Part shown: positions 14,215 through 18,278 of the stretch, piece after piece | Numbering within the stretch: position 1 is the first letter of the stretch | How the letters are laid out: each line of letters opens with the position of its first letter | Assembly (NCBI RefSeq): GCF_030269365.1 | Contig: NZ_BSTF01000004.1 | Location: 1-64,000, forward strand | Reading direction: 5' to 3' | DNA length: 64,000 nucleotides | Source of the DNA: Lentzea sp. NBRC 102530 | GTDB lineage: Bacteria; Actinomycetota; Actinomycetes; Mycobacteriales; Pseudonocardiaceae | Position numbers and translations under genes: made by a program | Notes under the pieces: model-generated | Told to the model about the DNA's origin: nothing | Seen by the model: only the letters and a program-made list of their open reading frames with translations | The model's database searches: none

Positions 14215-16284
14215 ATGGACGCGTTGCTGGAGGGTCTCGATCCGGAACAGCGCGCAGCGGTCGAGGCTCCGCGCGGCCCGGTCTGCGTGCTCGCGGGTGC
14301 CGGTACCGGTAAAACGCGCACCATCACGCACCGCATCGCCTACCTCTGCCAACGCGGTCACGTCGCTCCGTCGCAGGTCCTGGCCGTGACGTTCACCAAG
14401 CGCGCCGCGGGGGAGATGCGCACGCGTTTGCGTTCTCTCGACGTGCACGGCGCACAGGCCGTGACGTTCCACGCCGCCGCATCACGCCAGCTGCGCTACT
14501 TCTGGCCGCGCGTCATCGGCGGACCGCGCTGGGAGCTGGTCGACCAGAAGATCCGCGTCGTCGCCCGCGCCGCGACCAGGCTGGGCATGCCGACCGAGTC
14601 GGACGCGCTGAGGGACCTGACCAGCGAGATCGAGTGGGCGAAGGCGTCGCTGCTGGCGCCGGAGGACTACCCGGCCGCCGCCTCTCGCGCCGCGCGGGAC
14701 ATCCCGGCGCCCGCCGAGCAGATCATGAAGCTCTACCGGACCTACGAGGAGCTCAAGAACGAGGCGCAGCTGCTCGACTTCGACGACCTGCTGCTCTACA
14801 CGGCGGGCGCGCTGGAGGACAACGCCGAGGTCGCCCAGGAGTTCCGCGACCGCTACCGCTGCTTCGTCGTGGACGAGTACCAGGACGTGACGCCGCTGCA
14901 GCAGCGCGTGCTCGACTCGTGGCTGGGTGCGCGCGACGACCTGACGGTGGTCGGCGACGCGAACCAGACCATCTACTCCTTCGCGGGCGCCTCGCCGCAG
15001 CCGTTGCTGAACTTCGGCCGCCGGTTCCCCGAGGCGGTCGTCGTCCGGCTGGAACGCGACTACCGGTCGACGCCGCAGGTCGTGGAGCTGGCCAACGACG
15101 TGATCAAGTGGGCGCGCGGCCGCCCGGCGGGCTCGCGGCTCAACCTGATCGGGCAGCGCCCGGAGGGCCCGAAGCCGCGGTTCCACGAGTTCGACGACGA
15201 ACCGGCCGAGGCCGATGCCGTCGCCGGGCGCGTCAAGGCGCTGCTCGACGAGGGCGTAGCCGCGTCCGAGATCGCGATCCTCTACCGCGTCAACGCCCAG
15301 TCCGAGGTGTACGAGCAGGCGCTCGCGTCGCTGGGCATCCCGTACCTGGTGCGTGGCGGCGAGCGCTTCTTCGAACGCGCCGAGGTGCGCCAGGCGATGA
15401 TCACGCTGCGCTCGGCGGGCGACGTCGCCGGCAGCCTGCCCGAGGTGGTGCGGTCCGCGCTGCACCGCGTCGGGCTGACCGACGAACCGCCGACCGGTGG
15501 CAGCGCGCGGGAGCGCTGGGAGTCGTTGCTCGCACTGGTCGAGCTGGCCGAGGAGTTCGCCGCCGCCTCTCCCGAGGCCGACCTGCCGCGCTTCTGCGTC
15601 GAACTGGACGTGCGGGCCGAGGCGCAGCACCCGCCGACGGTCGAGGGCGTGACGCTGGCGTCGCTGCACGCCTCGAAGGGCCTCGAGTGGGACGCCGTGT
15701 TCCTCGTCGGCCTGGTCGAAGGCACCATGCCGATCCAGTACGCCGACGGCGACGAGGCCAAGATCGAAGAAGAACGACGCCTTCTCTACGTGGGTGTCAC
15801 GCGCGCGCGTGAGCACATCTGGCTGTCGTGGGCGCTGGCGCGCGCCGCCGGTGGGCGCAAGTACCGCCGCCGTTCGCGCTTCCTCTACAGCCTCGTTCCC
15901 GAGAACCACCCGGCCGCACGGGTATCTGCCGGCGCGGCGCGGCCACCTCTCATGAAGAAGGAGAAGCCGACCTGCCGGGTGTGCGCGTCGACGCTGGTCG
16001 AGGCGCAGGCCGTCAAGCTCGGCCGATGCAGGTCCTGCCCGTCCGATGTGGACGAAGAGCTGCTGGAGACCCTCCGTCAGTGGCGTGCGGGACGCGCGCG
16101 GGAGCTGAAGGTGCCCGCGTACGTCGTCTTCACCGACGCGACCCTGATGGCGATCGCCGAGCAGCGACCCACGGATTCGGCCGGACTGGTCGCGATCTCG
16201 GGCATCGGCGCCTCGAAGCTTGATAAGTTCGGTGACGACGTGTTGGGCCTGGTCCGAGCCGGTGTCGGGTACTCCGCCACCTGA
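14215..16284 (+). CDS. uvrD2: ATP-dependent DNA helicase UvrD2
   Basis: 689 residues, superfamily 1A. Walker A AGAGTGKT is at residues 27-34, motif II is VVDEYQD, motif [16 protein letters not shown], motif [13 protein letters not shown] and [17 protein letters not shown], motif [15 protein letters not shown]. Unlike UvrD/PcrA, the C-terminus has a tetracysteine element (CRVC near residue 587 and CRSC near 604) and an HRDC domain ending [16 protein letters not shown]. This layout defines UvrD2 of actinobacteria, a 3'-5' helicase. whiB7 follows, as in mycobacteria. Confidence 0.95.
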
Positions 16285-16301
16285 TCGGGACAAGTTTCGT
16301 T

Positions 16302-16338
16302 AAATAGGTTGCGAGCCTGTGGGACAGGGTCATAACCT
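16302..16338 (+). promoter_or_regulatory. Probable WhiB7-type promoter of whiB7
   Basis: An AT-rich AAAT (16302-16305) sits three bases before TTGCGA (16309-16314), with TAACCT (16333-16338) after an 18-bp spacer. WhiB7-dependent promoters are known to have an AT-rich motif 3 bp upstream of a TTGC-type -35. The match supports autoregulation of whiB7 by its own product with the primary sigma factor. Confidence 0.7.
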
Positions 16339-16342
16339 GCTC

Positions 16343-16411
16343 ATGCCGGGTCCGGAGGACCCGTCTGGGGAAGAAGAACTACTACTCGCTCTCTGCGCAG
16401 AGCTCTCTTGA
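16343..16411 (+). CDS. Possible upstream ORF in the whiB7 leader, 22 aa
   Basis: ATG 16343, four bases after the -10 hexamer, opens a 22-codon frame (MPGPEDPSGEEELLLALCAE, then LS) whose TGA overlaps the AGGAGG of the next leader ORF. If transcription starts at or near the ATG it would be a leaderless uORF. Such leaders sense ribosome inhibition in whiB7/wblC genes of other actinobacteria. Confidence 0.4.
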   Translation: MPGPEDPSGEEELLLALCAELS

Positions 16412-16424
16412 GGAGGTGGCCGTT

Positions 16425-16700
16425 GTGAAGCTCACCACGACTTCGCGCGCGCTCGGCCTCCCGTTGACCGAGGGCTTCTGCGCGTCTGCCTCCGTTCAAG
16501 CGATGTGGCAGAGCTCTGCCCTGAAGCCGGTCGGCTTCAAGGGACGCGAGCGCGGCACCGCTCTGCGGGGCGGCAGTGCACTGATCGGCGCCGAACTGCG
16601 CAACGAGCAGCCCATCGTGCTGCCGGTCATCGATGCGGTCCACAACTACACGAATGCGCTGTCCGCGCATCAAGTGAGAAGGCTCCTGCCGACCCCATAG
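16425..16700 (+). CDS. Leader ORF between uvrD2 and whiB7, 91 aa
   Basis: GTG 16425 lies eight bases after AGGAGG, the best ribosome site of this region. The frame encodes 91 residues (VKLTTTSRALGLPLTEGFCA to VRRLLPTP) and stops 23 nt before the attenuator hairpin. No domain is recognised. It could be a small protein or a long regulatory reading frame; translation of its last third would cover a segment (16661-16667) able to pair with the terminator. Confidence 0.55.
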   Translation: MKLTTTSRALGLPLTEGFCASASVQAMWQSSALKPVGFKGRERGTALRGGSALIGAELRNEQPIVLPVIDAVHNYTNALSAHQVRRLLPTP

Positions 16701-16723
16701 AGGGGTCGAAGGACCACCAGGCT

Positions 16724-16769
16724 CACGAAAGCCGCGGACTCGCACAGAGTCCGCGGCTTTCGTGTTTTT
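16724..16769 (+). terminator. Attenuator terminator in the whiB7 leader
   Basis: A 17-bp perfect stem (16724-16740 with 16748-16764) is followed directly by TTTTT. It ends 30 nt before the whiB7 start and after the putative promoter, so it would stop transcription before whiB7 by default. Bases 16661-16667 (GTCCGCG) can pair with 16733-16739 of its 5' arm and could act as an antiterminator. Confidence 0.85.
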
Positions 16770-16798
16770 GCAGTACCCCACACAAGGAGAAACACCTG

Positions 16799-17119
16799 AT
16801 GTTGACGGCGACTGTCCCGCTCACGGGCGAGACACTTCCGGACCTCGCGGAGGGGCTCGACATCCCCTGCCGCACCCACAACCCCGACCTCTGGTTCGCC
16901 GACGCTCCAGCTGACCTGGAGAAGGCGAAGTCCTTCTGCGGGACCTGCCCGGTCCTCGCCGAGTGCCTCGCCGGCGCGATCGCGCGTCACGAGCCGTGGG
17001 GCGTCTGGGGTGGAGAGATCTTCGAGCGCGGTGTCGTCATCGCGCGGAAGCGGCCGCGTGGCCGTCCGCGCAAGGACGCGGCAGTTGTTCCGGCCAGCAG
17101 GACGGAGTCGGCAGCGTGA
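16799..17119 (+). CDS. whiB7: WhiB7-type iron-sulfur transcriptional regulator
   Basis: 106 residues. Cluster ligands Cys24, Cys47, Cys50 and Cys56 (C-x22-C-x2-C-x5-C), the G[VI]WGG turn at 68-72, and a C-terminal AT-hook RPRGRPRK at 85-92, the feature that separates WhiB7 from other Wbl proteins. WhiB7 binds the primary sigma factor and activates intrinsic antibiotic-resistance genes. AAGGAG precedes ATG 16799. The position after uvrD2 is the conserved one. Confidence 0.93.
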   Translation: MLTATVPLTGETLPDLAEGLDIPCRTHNPDLWFADAPADLEKAKSFCGTCPVLAECLAGAIARHEPWGVWGGEIFERGVVIARKRPRGRPRKDAAVVPASRTESAA

Positions 17120-17331
17120 ACACCGTGCAGCTCAACCACAACGCAATGCCCGCCTACCTGAACGAGGGCCTGACTCCCATGTCTCTGTCCGAAGAACTCG
17201 TGCGAATACGAATACAAGAAGCCCAGAGGTTCGCTGAAGAGCAACGCGTGGCGAACCGCCTCGCGGCAGCGCAACGTTGGCGCAGGTTGTCGCGATGGGC
17301 GGGACGCAGAGCGGCTCGCTTCGACCTCTGA
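17116..17331 (+). CDS. Small protein coupled to whiB7, 71 aa
   Basis: GTG 17116 overlaps the whiB7 stop (GTGA). The 71 residues include a long basic amphipathic helix (LSEELVRIRIQEAQRFAEEQ and onward to RRAARFDL), with no Cys. Coupling suggests it is made together with WhiB7; a role as a partner is inference. Not a recognised family. Confidence 0.7.
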   Translation: MNTVQLNHNAMPAYLNEGLTPMSLSEELVRIRIQEAQRFAEEQRVANRLAAAQRWRRLSRWAGRRAARFDL

Positions 17332-17344
17332 CAGTCACGAGCTG

Positions 17345-17378
17345 AGGCCGTCATCCACGAGAAGGTGGATGGCGGCCT
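17345..17378 (+). terminator. Terminator after the whiB7 operon
   Basis: A 14-bp stem (17345-17358 with 17365-17378) with one G-T wobble and a 6-nt loop. Confidence 0.75.
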
Positions 17379-17405
17379 TCGCCGTTCCTCCGTACCGTCC
17401 CCTTT

Positions 17406-18278
17406 GTGCCGCAACACACACACGACGGAATCGACTGGTCCTCCCGCCTCCACGCGATGAGGCGCTACGGCTCCCTGCAGGCGGAGGCGCTGACCTCAGT
17501 GGCCCGCAGACTCGTCGAGCCACTACCCGACTCACCCGTGGTGATGGACGTGGGCTGCGGCGCCGGCACCATGAGCGTCCCCCTCGTCGCAGCCCTGCGA
17601 GAGCACGGCGGAGGCGTCCTGGTCCTGGTCGACGCCACCCCCGAACTGCTCGACGCAGCCTGCTCCGCGGCCAGAGCCGAAGCCGACGGCGTGGTCCAGA
17701 TCAAGCCGGTCCTGGCCGACCTGGCCTCGGAAGACCCGCTGTCGTTCGTCGGCCCGGTCGAGCTCATCTGGGGCTCCCGCGTCCTCCACCACCTCCCTGA
17801 CCAGCAGCGAGGCGTCCGGCGCCTGGTTTCGGCGCTGGCACCCGGTGGCTGGCTGGCGCTGGCCGAGGGCGGCCTCGAGACCCGCTTCCTGCCGTGGGAC
17901 CTCGGCGTTGGCGCCCCCGGTCTGCAGGACCGGTTGGCTGCGGCTCGCGCTTCCTGGTTCGTGTCGATGCGCGAGGGCATGTCCGGCTCGGTGCGCCTGC
18001 CGGTCGGCTGGAACGTGGCCTTGGCCGATGCCGGCCTCGGTGAGATCAGCGCCTTCAGCTTCGTGGTCGACCATCCGGCGCCGGCCAAGCAGTTGGTGCG
18101 GGACTGGGCCGTTGACCGGCTGACCTGGTTGGCCGAGGTCGCCGGGCCTCAGTTGCACCCTTCTGATCGAGAGGCGTTGCGTCGGCTGCTCAACCCGTCC
18201 GATTCCGAGTTCGTCGGGCTGCGGGAGGACGTGTTCCTGCTGGAGACCGACACCGTTCACGTCGGGCTTCGGCGGTGA
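17406..18278 (+). CDS. Class I SAM-dependent methyltransferase
   Basis: 290 residues. Motif I VVMDVGCGAGTMSVPLV (residues ~46-62), acidic motif II VLVDATPELL, and the post-motif LIWGSRVLHHLPDQQRGVRRL with LAPGGWLALAEGG are all present. The C-terminal ~110 residues form a helical lid. The substrate is unknown. TACCGT is seven bases before GTG 17406 (leaderless). The next small gene overlaps its stop. Confidence 0.88.
   Translation: MPQHTHDGIDWSSRLHAMRRYGSLQAEALTSVARRLVEPLPDSPVVMDVGCGAGTMSVPLVAALREHGGGVLVLVDATPELLDAACSAARAEADGVVQIKPVLADLASEDPLSFVGPVELIWGSRVLHHLPDQQRGVRRLVSALAPGGWLALAEGGLETRFLPWDLGVGAPGLQDRLAAARASWFVSMREGMSGSVRLPVGWNVALADAGLGEISAFSFVVDHPAPAKQLVRDWAVDRLTWLAEVAGPQLHPSDREALRRLLNPSDSEFVGLREDVFLLETDTVHVGLRR

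Follow-up and report, generated by a model that had tools for sequence, protein, structure and literature searches.

The leader of whiB7 in Lentzea sp. NBRC 102530 holds two candidate upstream reading frames between a promoter and a terminator, and this raises the question of whether both frames, or only one, sense translation. A first-pass annotation of the window (the whole stretch of 64,000 nucleotides analysed here) had proposed a translation-sensing attenuator with two reading frames. It had described a WhiB7-type promoter, an ATG frame of 22 codons and a 91-codon frame preceded by AGGAGG, and all of these were found in the sequence as claimed. Comparison with related genomes strongly suggests that the locus is a standard whiB7/wblC attenuator with a single sensing upstream open reading frame (uORF), a reading that we hold with high confidence. 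The elements discussed below are as follows.

Ends at 16284, upstream of the promoter: UvrD/HRDC helicase gene (open reading frame and domain matches)
16302-16338, forward strand: WhiB7-type promoter, read from the sequence and conserved in relatives
16343-16411, forward strand: first ATG frame, 22 codons and TGA, probably no functional uORF
16347-16363, forward strand: predicted 5' stem-loop (arms CGGGTCC and GGACCCG, loop GGA), found by folding, inside the 22-codon frame
16411-16416, forward strand: Shine-Dalgarno sequence AGGAGG of the uORF, read from the sequence
16425-16700, forward strand: whiB7 uORF (second frame), 91 codons, GTG to TAG, supported by comparative evidence
16661-16739, forward strand: putative antiterminator, from folding and covariation
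16724-16769, forward strand: putative intrinsic terminator, 18-bp stem and T5, from terminator scan and folding
16799-17119, forward strand: whiB7, 106 amino acids, ATG at 16799, match to PF02467

The product of the downstream gene matched PF02467 with E=1.2e-14, and the AT_hook model at E=0.022, below its cut-off. It carries the WhiB domain, the WGVWGGE motif and an AT-hook-like RGRPRK end. At E<=1e-28, whiB7 had a match in 287 of the 297 genomes of the family, and the second-best hit within its own genome stood at 2e-10; a WhiB7 orthologue thus lies directly downstream of the leader. The UvrD/HRDC helicase gene on the other side is presumably uvrD2.

The promoter is composed of AAAT (16302-16305), 3 bp, TTGCGA (16309-16314), 18 bp and TAACCT (16333-16338). 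It was near-invariant across 22 aligned Lentzea leaders out of 23 (L016, in which the ATG used as anchor is changed, was left out of this alignment), and the same pattern was present in 66 of 67 family loci (L069-L135). The A/T stretch 3 bp before the -35 element, which characterizes promoters of whiB7/wblC uORF attenuators, is presented as the WhiB7 binding site in the available text of PMC7157823. Judging by the position of the promoter, transcription would start near 16343-16346. At the other end of the leader, the terminator and its T5 were recovered as the first-pass annotation had them, while the stem proved to have 18 pairs instead of 17; the whiB7 ATG lies 29 nt beyond the T run. The hairpin (16724-16764) contains 12 G-C pairs and a 5-nt loop, is followed by TTTTT, and its stem alone has a folding energy of -40.5 kcal/mol at 30°C. 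All 22 aligned Lentzea leaders have the hairpin and the T run. A scan of 1.6 kb returned this single terminator-like site. Since shuffled sequences averaged 0.8 such sites at the weak minimum set for the scan, the number of sites proves nothing by itself. By its sequence and fold, the element would be a Rho-independent terminator placed just before whiB7.

Between these two elements, the GTG frame runs without internal stop to a TAG at 16698-16700; the next in-frame GTG upstream (16416) overlaps the Shine-Dalgarno sequence. In all 24 Lentzea-genus sequences a GGAGG ends 8-12 nt ahead of the GTG. At E<=0.01, 22 of the 23 other Lentzea genomes yielded a match to the frame, and none of 36 from other genera did; the remaining Lentzea genome (L069) carries a diverged version of 69 codons. 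One genome gave a further, weak match (L024, E=0.009, 30% identity), which had one internal stop and was dropped. Distinct gap intervals in the 22 aligned leaders were multiples of 3 in 8 cases out of 8 inside the uORF and in 5 out of 16 upstream of it, and stop codons interrupted one shifted frame in 23 and the other in 18 of the 23 sequences. It is therefore the open frame itself that is conserved, and a uORF preceded by a Shine-Dalgarno sequence and open in relatives lies between promoter and terminator. Leucine (13.2%) and alanine (12.9%) were the commonest residues over 24 uORFs, as raw composition taken without a proteome background. The whiB7 uORFs of three loci from another family of the order (L160, L164 and L170) seem, in contrast to that of Lentzea, to be very rich in alanine; they recall the title of a paper that reportedly deals with alanine starvation and whiB7 in mycobacteria.

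The annotation had also pointed out that positions 16661-16667, inside the long frame, can pair with the 5' arm of the terminator. This pairing is exact: GTCCGCG (16661-16667) is the reverse complement of CGCGGAC (16733-16739). A second antiterminator helix can form between GTGAG (16674-16678) and CTCAC (16722-16726), and a hairpin around the uORF stop codon between CGACCCC (16690-16696) and GGGGTCG (16702-16708). Substitution rates set the end of the frame apart, with dS at 0.028 in the last 19 codons of the Lentzea uORF (dN 0.038) against 0.306 in the codons before them, and at 0.037 (dN 0.096) against 0.351 for the last 14 codons in a second genus of the family. On these rates the end of the uORF is conserved as RNA, and it is there that the predicted antiterminator strand is located.

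Covariation of the core was then counted on 66 family rows, the L001-L023 group being entered as one row. The terminator arm CGGAC was found with the word GTCCGC in the uORF end in 39 rows and with GTTCCG in 1; the arm CGGAAC was found with GTCCGC in 0 rows and with GTTCCG in 18; both words occurred in 1 row and neither in 7. Either word appeared in only 5, 4 and 4 of the 66 rows in control windows placed 50, 100 and 150 nt further upstream. When the samples from the order and the class were added and every distinct Lentzea row was entered, the association was weaker (66:3 and 9:20, both words in 2, neither in 24). The Fisher p values, 4e-14 for the family and 4e-11 for all rows, are too small as they treat related leaders as independent.

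Further RNA comparisons used 54 references preselected for GTCCGC and the CGGAC arm, a choice that makes them uninformative on the core pairing. RNAalifold found no consensus structure in an alignment of 49 of them, of mixed genera (L017, L019, L021, L119 and L127 left out). The stop-codon hairpin fell in different columns of this alignment for Lentzea and for the other genera, and its helix was therefore counted only on sequences of other genera, namely 33 of the 35 references outside L001-L023 (L069 and L094 left out). The letters of this helix are CCTGAC/GTCAGG in many other genera and GACCCC/GGGGTC in Lentzea, with a matched change to GACCTC/GAGGTC in L016. In the 33 sequences, 98.5% of cells could pair, against 4-41% when the two sides were slid. 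Four cells were changed on both sides, a number reached by 0 of 500 shuffles; all lay at one pair, and one such pair was reached by 252 of 500 shuffles. An Rfam search of positions 15500-17500 returned five matches up to E=1, all of them to four microRNA models and far below gathering score, as expected by chance. An antiterminator made of the uORF end and the terminator arm is backed by covariation of its core; RNAalifold, the count on the stop-codon helix and folding with unlimited pairing distance gave negative or weak support.

The antiterminator range alone (16655-16742) folds into the proposed structure at -45.6 kcal/mol at 30°C. With local folding (pairing within 90-150 nt), the core had a predicted probability of 0.91-0.92 in the untranslated leader up to 16742. 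A ribosome was then placed on codons 30-92 in steps of 3. The core probability was 0.97 with the ribosome at codon 72 and 0.60-0.95 at other positions before codon 75; low values were obtained at codons 48 (0.13), 54 (0.05), 60 (0.36), 63 (0.26) and 66 (0.00). From codon 75 on it was 0, the antiterminator strand lying under the assumed footprint. In these calculations the switch point near codon 73-75 is set only by the footprint, and the remaining profile is model-dependent. When pairing distance was unlimited, the core probability ranged from 0.002 to 0.78 according to the chosen ends. At equilibrium the finished terminator always wins, and the model therefore needs co-transcriptional folding.

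Could the hairpin before whiB7 simply block read-through from the helicase gene, with whiB7 transcribed from a start downstream of it? The helicase frame does end close upstream, at 16284, and a scan of 15800-17400 gave no sigma-70-like site that such a start could use, a weak objection as the same scan also misses the WhiB7-type promoter. What argues against this explanation is that the T run leaves only the 29 nt mentioned above before whiB7, and that a conserved WhiB7-type promoter stands ahead of the hairpin; we consider it almost certainly wrong. A small protein with an independent function is also a highly improbable product of the 91-codon frame. The frame is open, preceded by a Shine-Dalgarno sequence and conserved in the genus, and its dN/dS (Nei-Gojobori averages over pairs, as for all values here) was 0.74 in the codons before the last 19 (dN 0.226), against 0.92 and 1.20 in the shifted frames; the whole frame gave 0.79 when L069 was added. 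In the same 23 genomes, however, dN/dS was 0.12 for whiB7 and 0.07 for the final 200 codons of the helicase gene, and in the second genus (13 sequences) the uORF stood at 0.85 against 0.06 for whiB7. No match to the 91-aa frame was found in Pfam or NCBIfam, and its only relatives at E<=1e-3 among the genome contigs searched were 21 loci, 20 labelled Lentzea and one labelled Nocardia sp. NRRL S-836. The peptide is nearly free, perhaps under a weak constraint. The first-pass annotation had proposed an alignment to see whether the protein or only the RNA pairing is conserved: the open frame and the RNA pairing are, the peptide hardly.

The 22-codon ATG frame remains to be considered as a second sensor. 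According to the tandem scheme, a leaderless first uORF would sense translation and be coupled to the second through an overlap, TGAGGAGG, and the TGA of the first frame does overlap the AGGAGG of the second in the window. The ATG and the following 10 codons were invariant in the 22 aligned Lentzea leaders, up to the end of the 5' hairpin and the beginning of a purine stretch, but promoter and hairpin can account for this block. Beyond it, the first frame stopped before the GTG of the uORF in 5 leaders, ended on the TGA of the uORF's own GTGA in 3 and entered the uORF in frame in 5, cases that speak for the tandem scheme; in the other 9 it overlapped the uORF out of frame, and 3 of these overlaps extended to the end of the stretch examined (>170 codons). 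The phase between the two starts was scattered (11:5:6). Two of the 24 Lentzea sequences have no first ATG, which is TAG in L016 and is absent from L069. Outside L001-L023, 7 of 66 family leaders have an ATG no more than 12 nt from the -10 element, five of them at the same spot; over all 114 leader rows outside that group (some loci entering twice) there are only 10, these 7 included. For M. abscessus, the available text of PMC4974804 mentions two small ORFs that are induced and lie close to whiB7, which could be read as favouring two small ORFs. The first frame is thus neither conserved as a frame nor held in a fixed relation to the second; the tandem scheme is very unlikely, and this part of the first-pass annotation is not supported.

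Most likely, judging from the related leaders, the first frame is a by-product of the 5' hairpin, as other genera mostly have the hairpin without the frame. The RNA of positions 16340-16372 folds at -18.7 kcal/mol. In 53 of 66 family leaders a stem of 5 bp or more begins within 12 nt of the -10 element (mean 12.65 and maximum 20 of 66 in 100 shuffles), and in 31 of them the stem has 7 bp or more (2.4 in shuffles). The arms vary by genus, for instance CGGGCGC/GCGCCCG, CAGGCGC/GCGCCTG and CGGGCAC/GTGCCCG, these examples being stems selected for pairing. As to its role, protection of the 5' end would be a guess. The motif CTGGGGA follows the stem-loop in the aligned Lentzea leaders and in many near relatives. 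In two members of the Lentzea clade (L013 and L014), the first frame is open through the terminator and into whiB7, in frame, over 257 and 259 codons; if ever translated, it would yield an extended WhiB7.

The length of the second frame had struck the first-pass annotation as unlike described leaders. A survey of actinomycetes did not bear this out. We retained 84 whiB7 leaders whose terminator stem had 11 bp or more from 123 loci (L069-L191), after removal of duplicates and short upstream stretches and leaving out L001-L023. A frame that follows a Shine-Dalgarno sequence and stops 8-36 nt ahead of the terminator reached 30, 50 and 60 codons or more in 69, 67 and 66 of them, against 1.3, 0.95 and 0.7 expected from dinucleotide shuffles. 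By these criteria 70 of the 84 leaders have a frame, with a median of 77.5 codons (range 23-116), and 14 have none; in several loci the hairpin escaped the terminator finder or was put in the wrong place. In loci that this count did not catch, three leaders of one family carry frames of 105-109 codons, and three of a second family carry frames of 53-68 codons rich in alanine. A long uORF is common in actinomycete whiB7 leaders.

A uORF-mediated transcription attenuator of whiB7/wblC has reportedly been described by Burian and Thompson in 2018 and by Lee, Lee and Roe in 2022. The mechanism is set out in the available parts of PMC10727445 and PMC11550727, and together with the accessible text of PMC4128351 they describe the elements found here: the gene, the promoter type, a uORF with a Shine-Dalgarno sequence, a Rho-independent terminator, and an antiterminator formed by the uORF end and the terminator arm. 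In the portion of PMC4128351 that deals with two mycobacteria, the uORF begins about 10 nt after the Shine-Dalgarno sequence and the start site lies about 350 nt upstream of whiB7. As far as could be compared, the Lentzea leader, with its uORF of 91 codons, differs from these only in sequence and species. Our literature search, which covered sources in part, did not find a published uORF length or Lentzea leaders, and this does not prove their absence. According to the available discussion of a 2025 research paper (PMC12121999), no test had yet been made of whether antibiotics stall ribosomes within the uORF of whiB7.

Attenuators of the trp type obey the same ribosome-position logic as those of the ilvB type. 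For the latter, the accessible text of PMC13236596 describes a terminator when the ribosome is at the stop codon and an antiterminator when it has stalled earlier, a logic shared by the leader proposed here. Leaders of the trp and ilvB types are short and contain control codons, whereas the Lentzea leader has a long frame with no obvious control codon.

The single-uORF attenuator that we favour, which matches the whiB7/wblC system in print, would work as follows. RNA polymerase would start near 16343 and transcribe the 5' hairpin and then the 91-codon uORF. Ribosomes traversing the uORF would occupy its last ~17 codons and its stop codon, which lies 23 nt before the terminator stem; with the antiterminator strand so covered, the terminator would form and transcription would halt before whiB7. 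If ribosomes were slowed or halted upstream of about codon 73, or if translation did not initiate, this strand would be free, 16661-16667 and 16674-16678 would pair with 16733-16739 and 16722-16726, the 5' arm of the terminator would be taken up and whiB7 would be transcribed. WhiB7 would then raise the activity of its own promoter. The elements of the leader, their conservation, the covariation of the core and the fold energies are the basis of this model; from them we infer that the uORF is translated, where transcription starts, that it terminates before whiB7 and that drugs induce the gene.

We also put forward, tentatively and with some doubt, that the uORF is a frame without message, kept open and long while its peptide is hardly selected, which senses whether a ribosome can cross about 70 ordinary codons without stalling. 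If so, length, and not a drug-specific stall motif, would account for the response of one leader to many classes of translation inhibitors and to starvation; the near-neutral peptide suggests such a general sensor of ribosome transit. The attenuator type is already known; any novelty may lie in the contrast measured here, with the frame retained and its peptide close to neutral. For the annotation of such leaders, the comparison removes the wrong lead of a second, extra uORF, with a long uORF being usual in actinomycete whiB7 leaders and the antiterminator co-varying in the family.

A minor observation concerns the region behind whiB7. An ORF of 71 amino acids (17116-17331, forward strand) starts inside the whiB7 stop codon, with a GTGA overlap that is ATGA in two loci. 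An ORF of about this length was present in 30 of 30 loci examined, its C-terminal half being well kept. Pfam and NCBIfam contained no family for it. A profile built from 7 sequences detected it in 40 of 60 relatives (E<=0.01), one copy having an internal stop, and all 40 lay on the same strand as whiB7, at most 200 bp downstream. From this arrangement, it may be a coupled partner of WhiB7.
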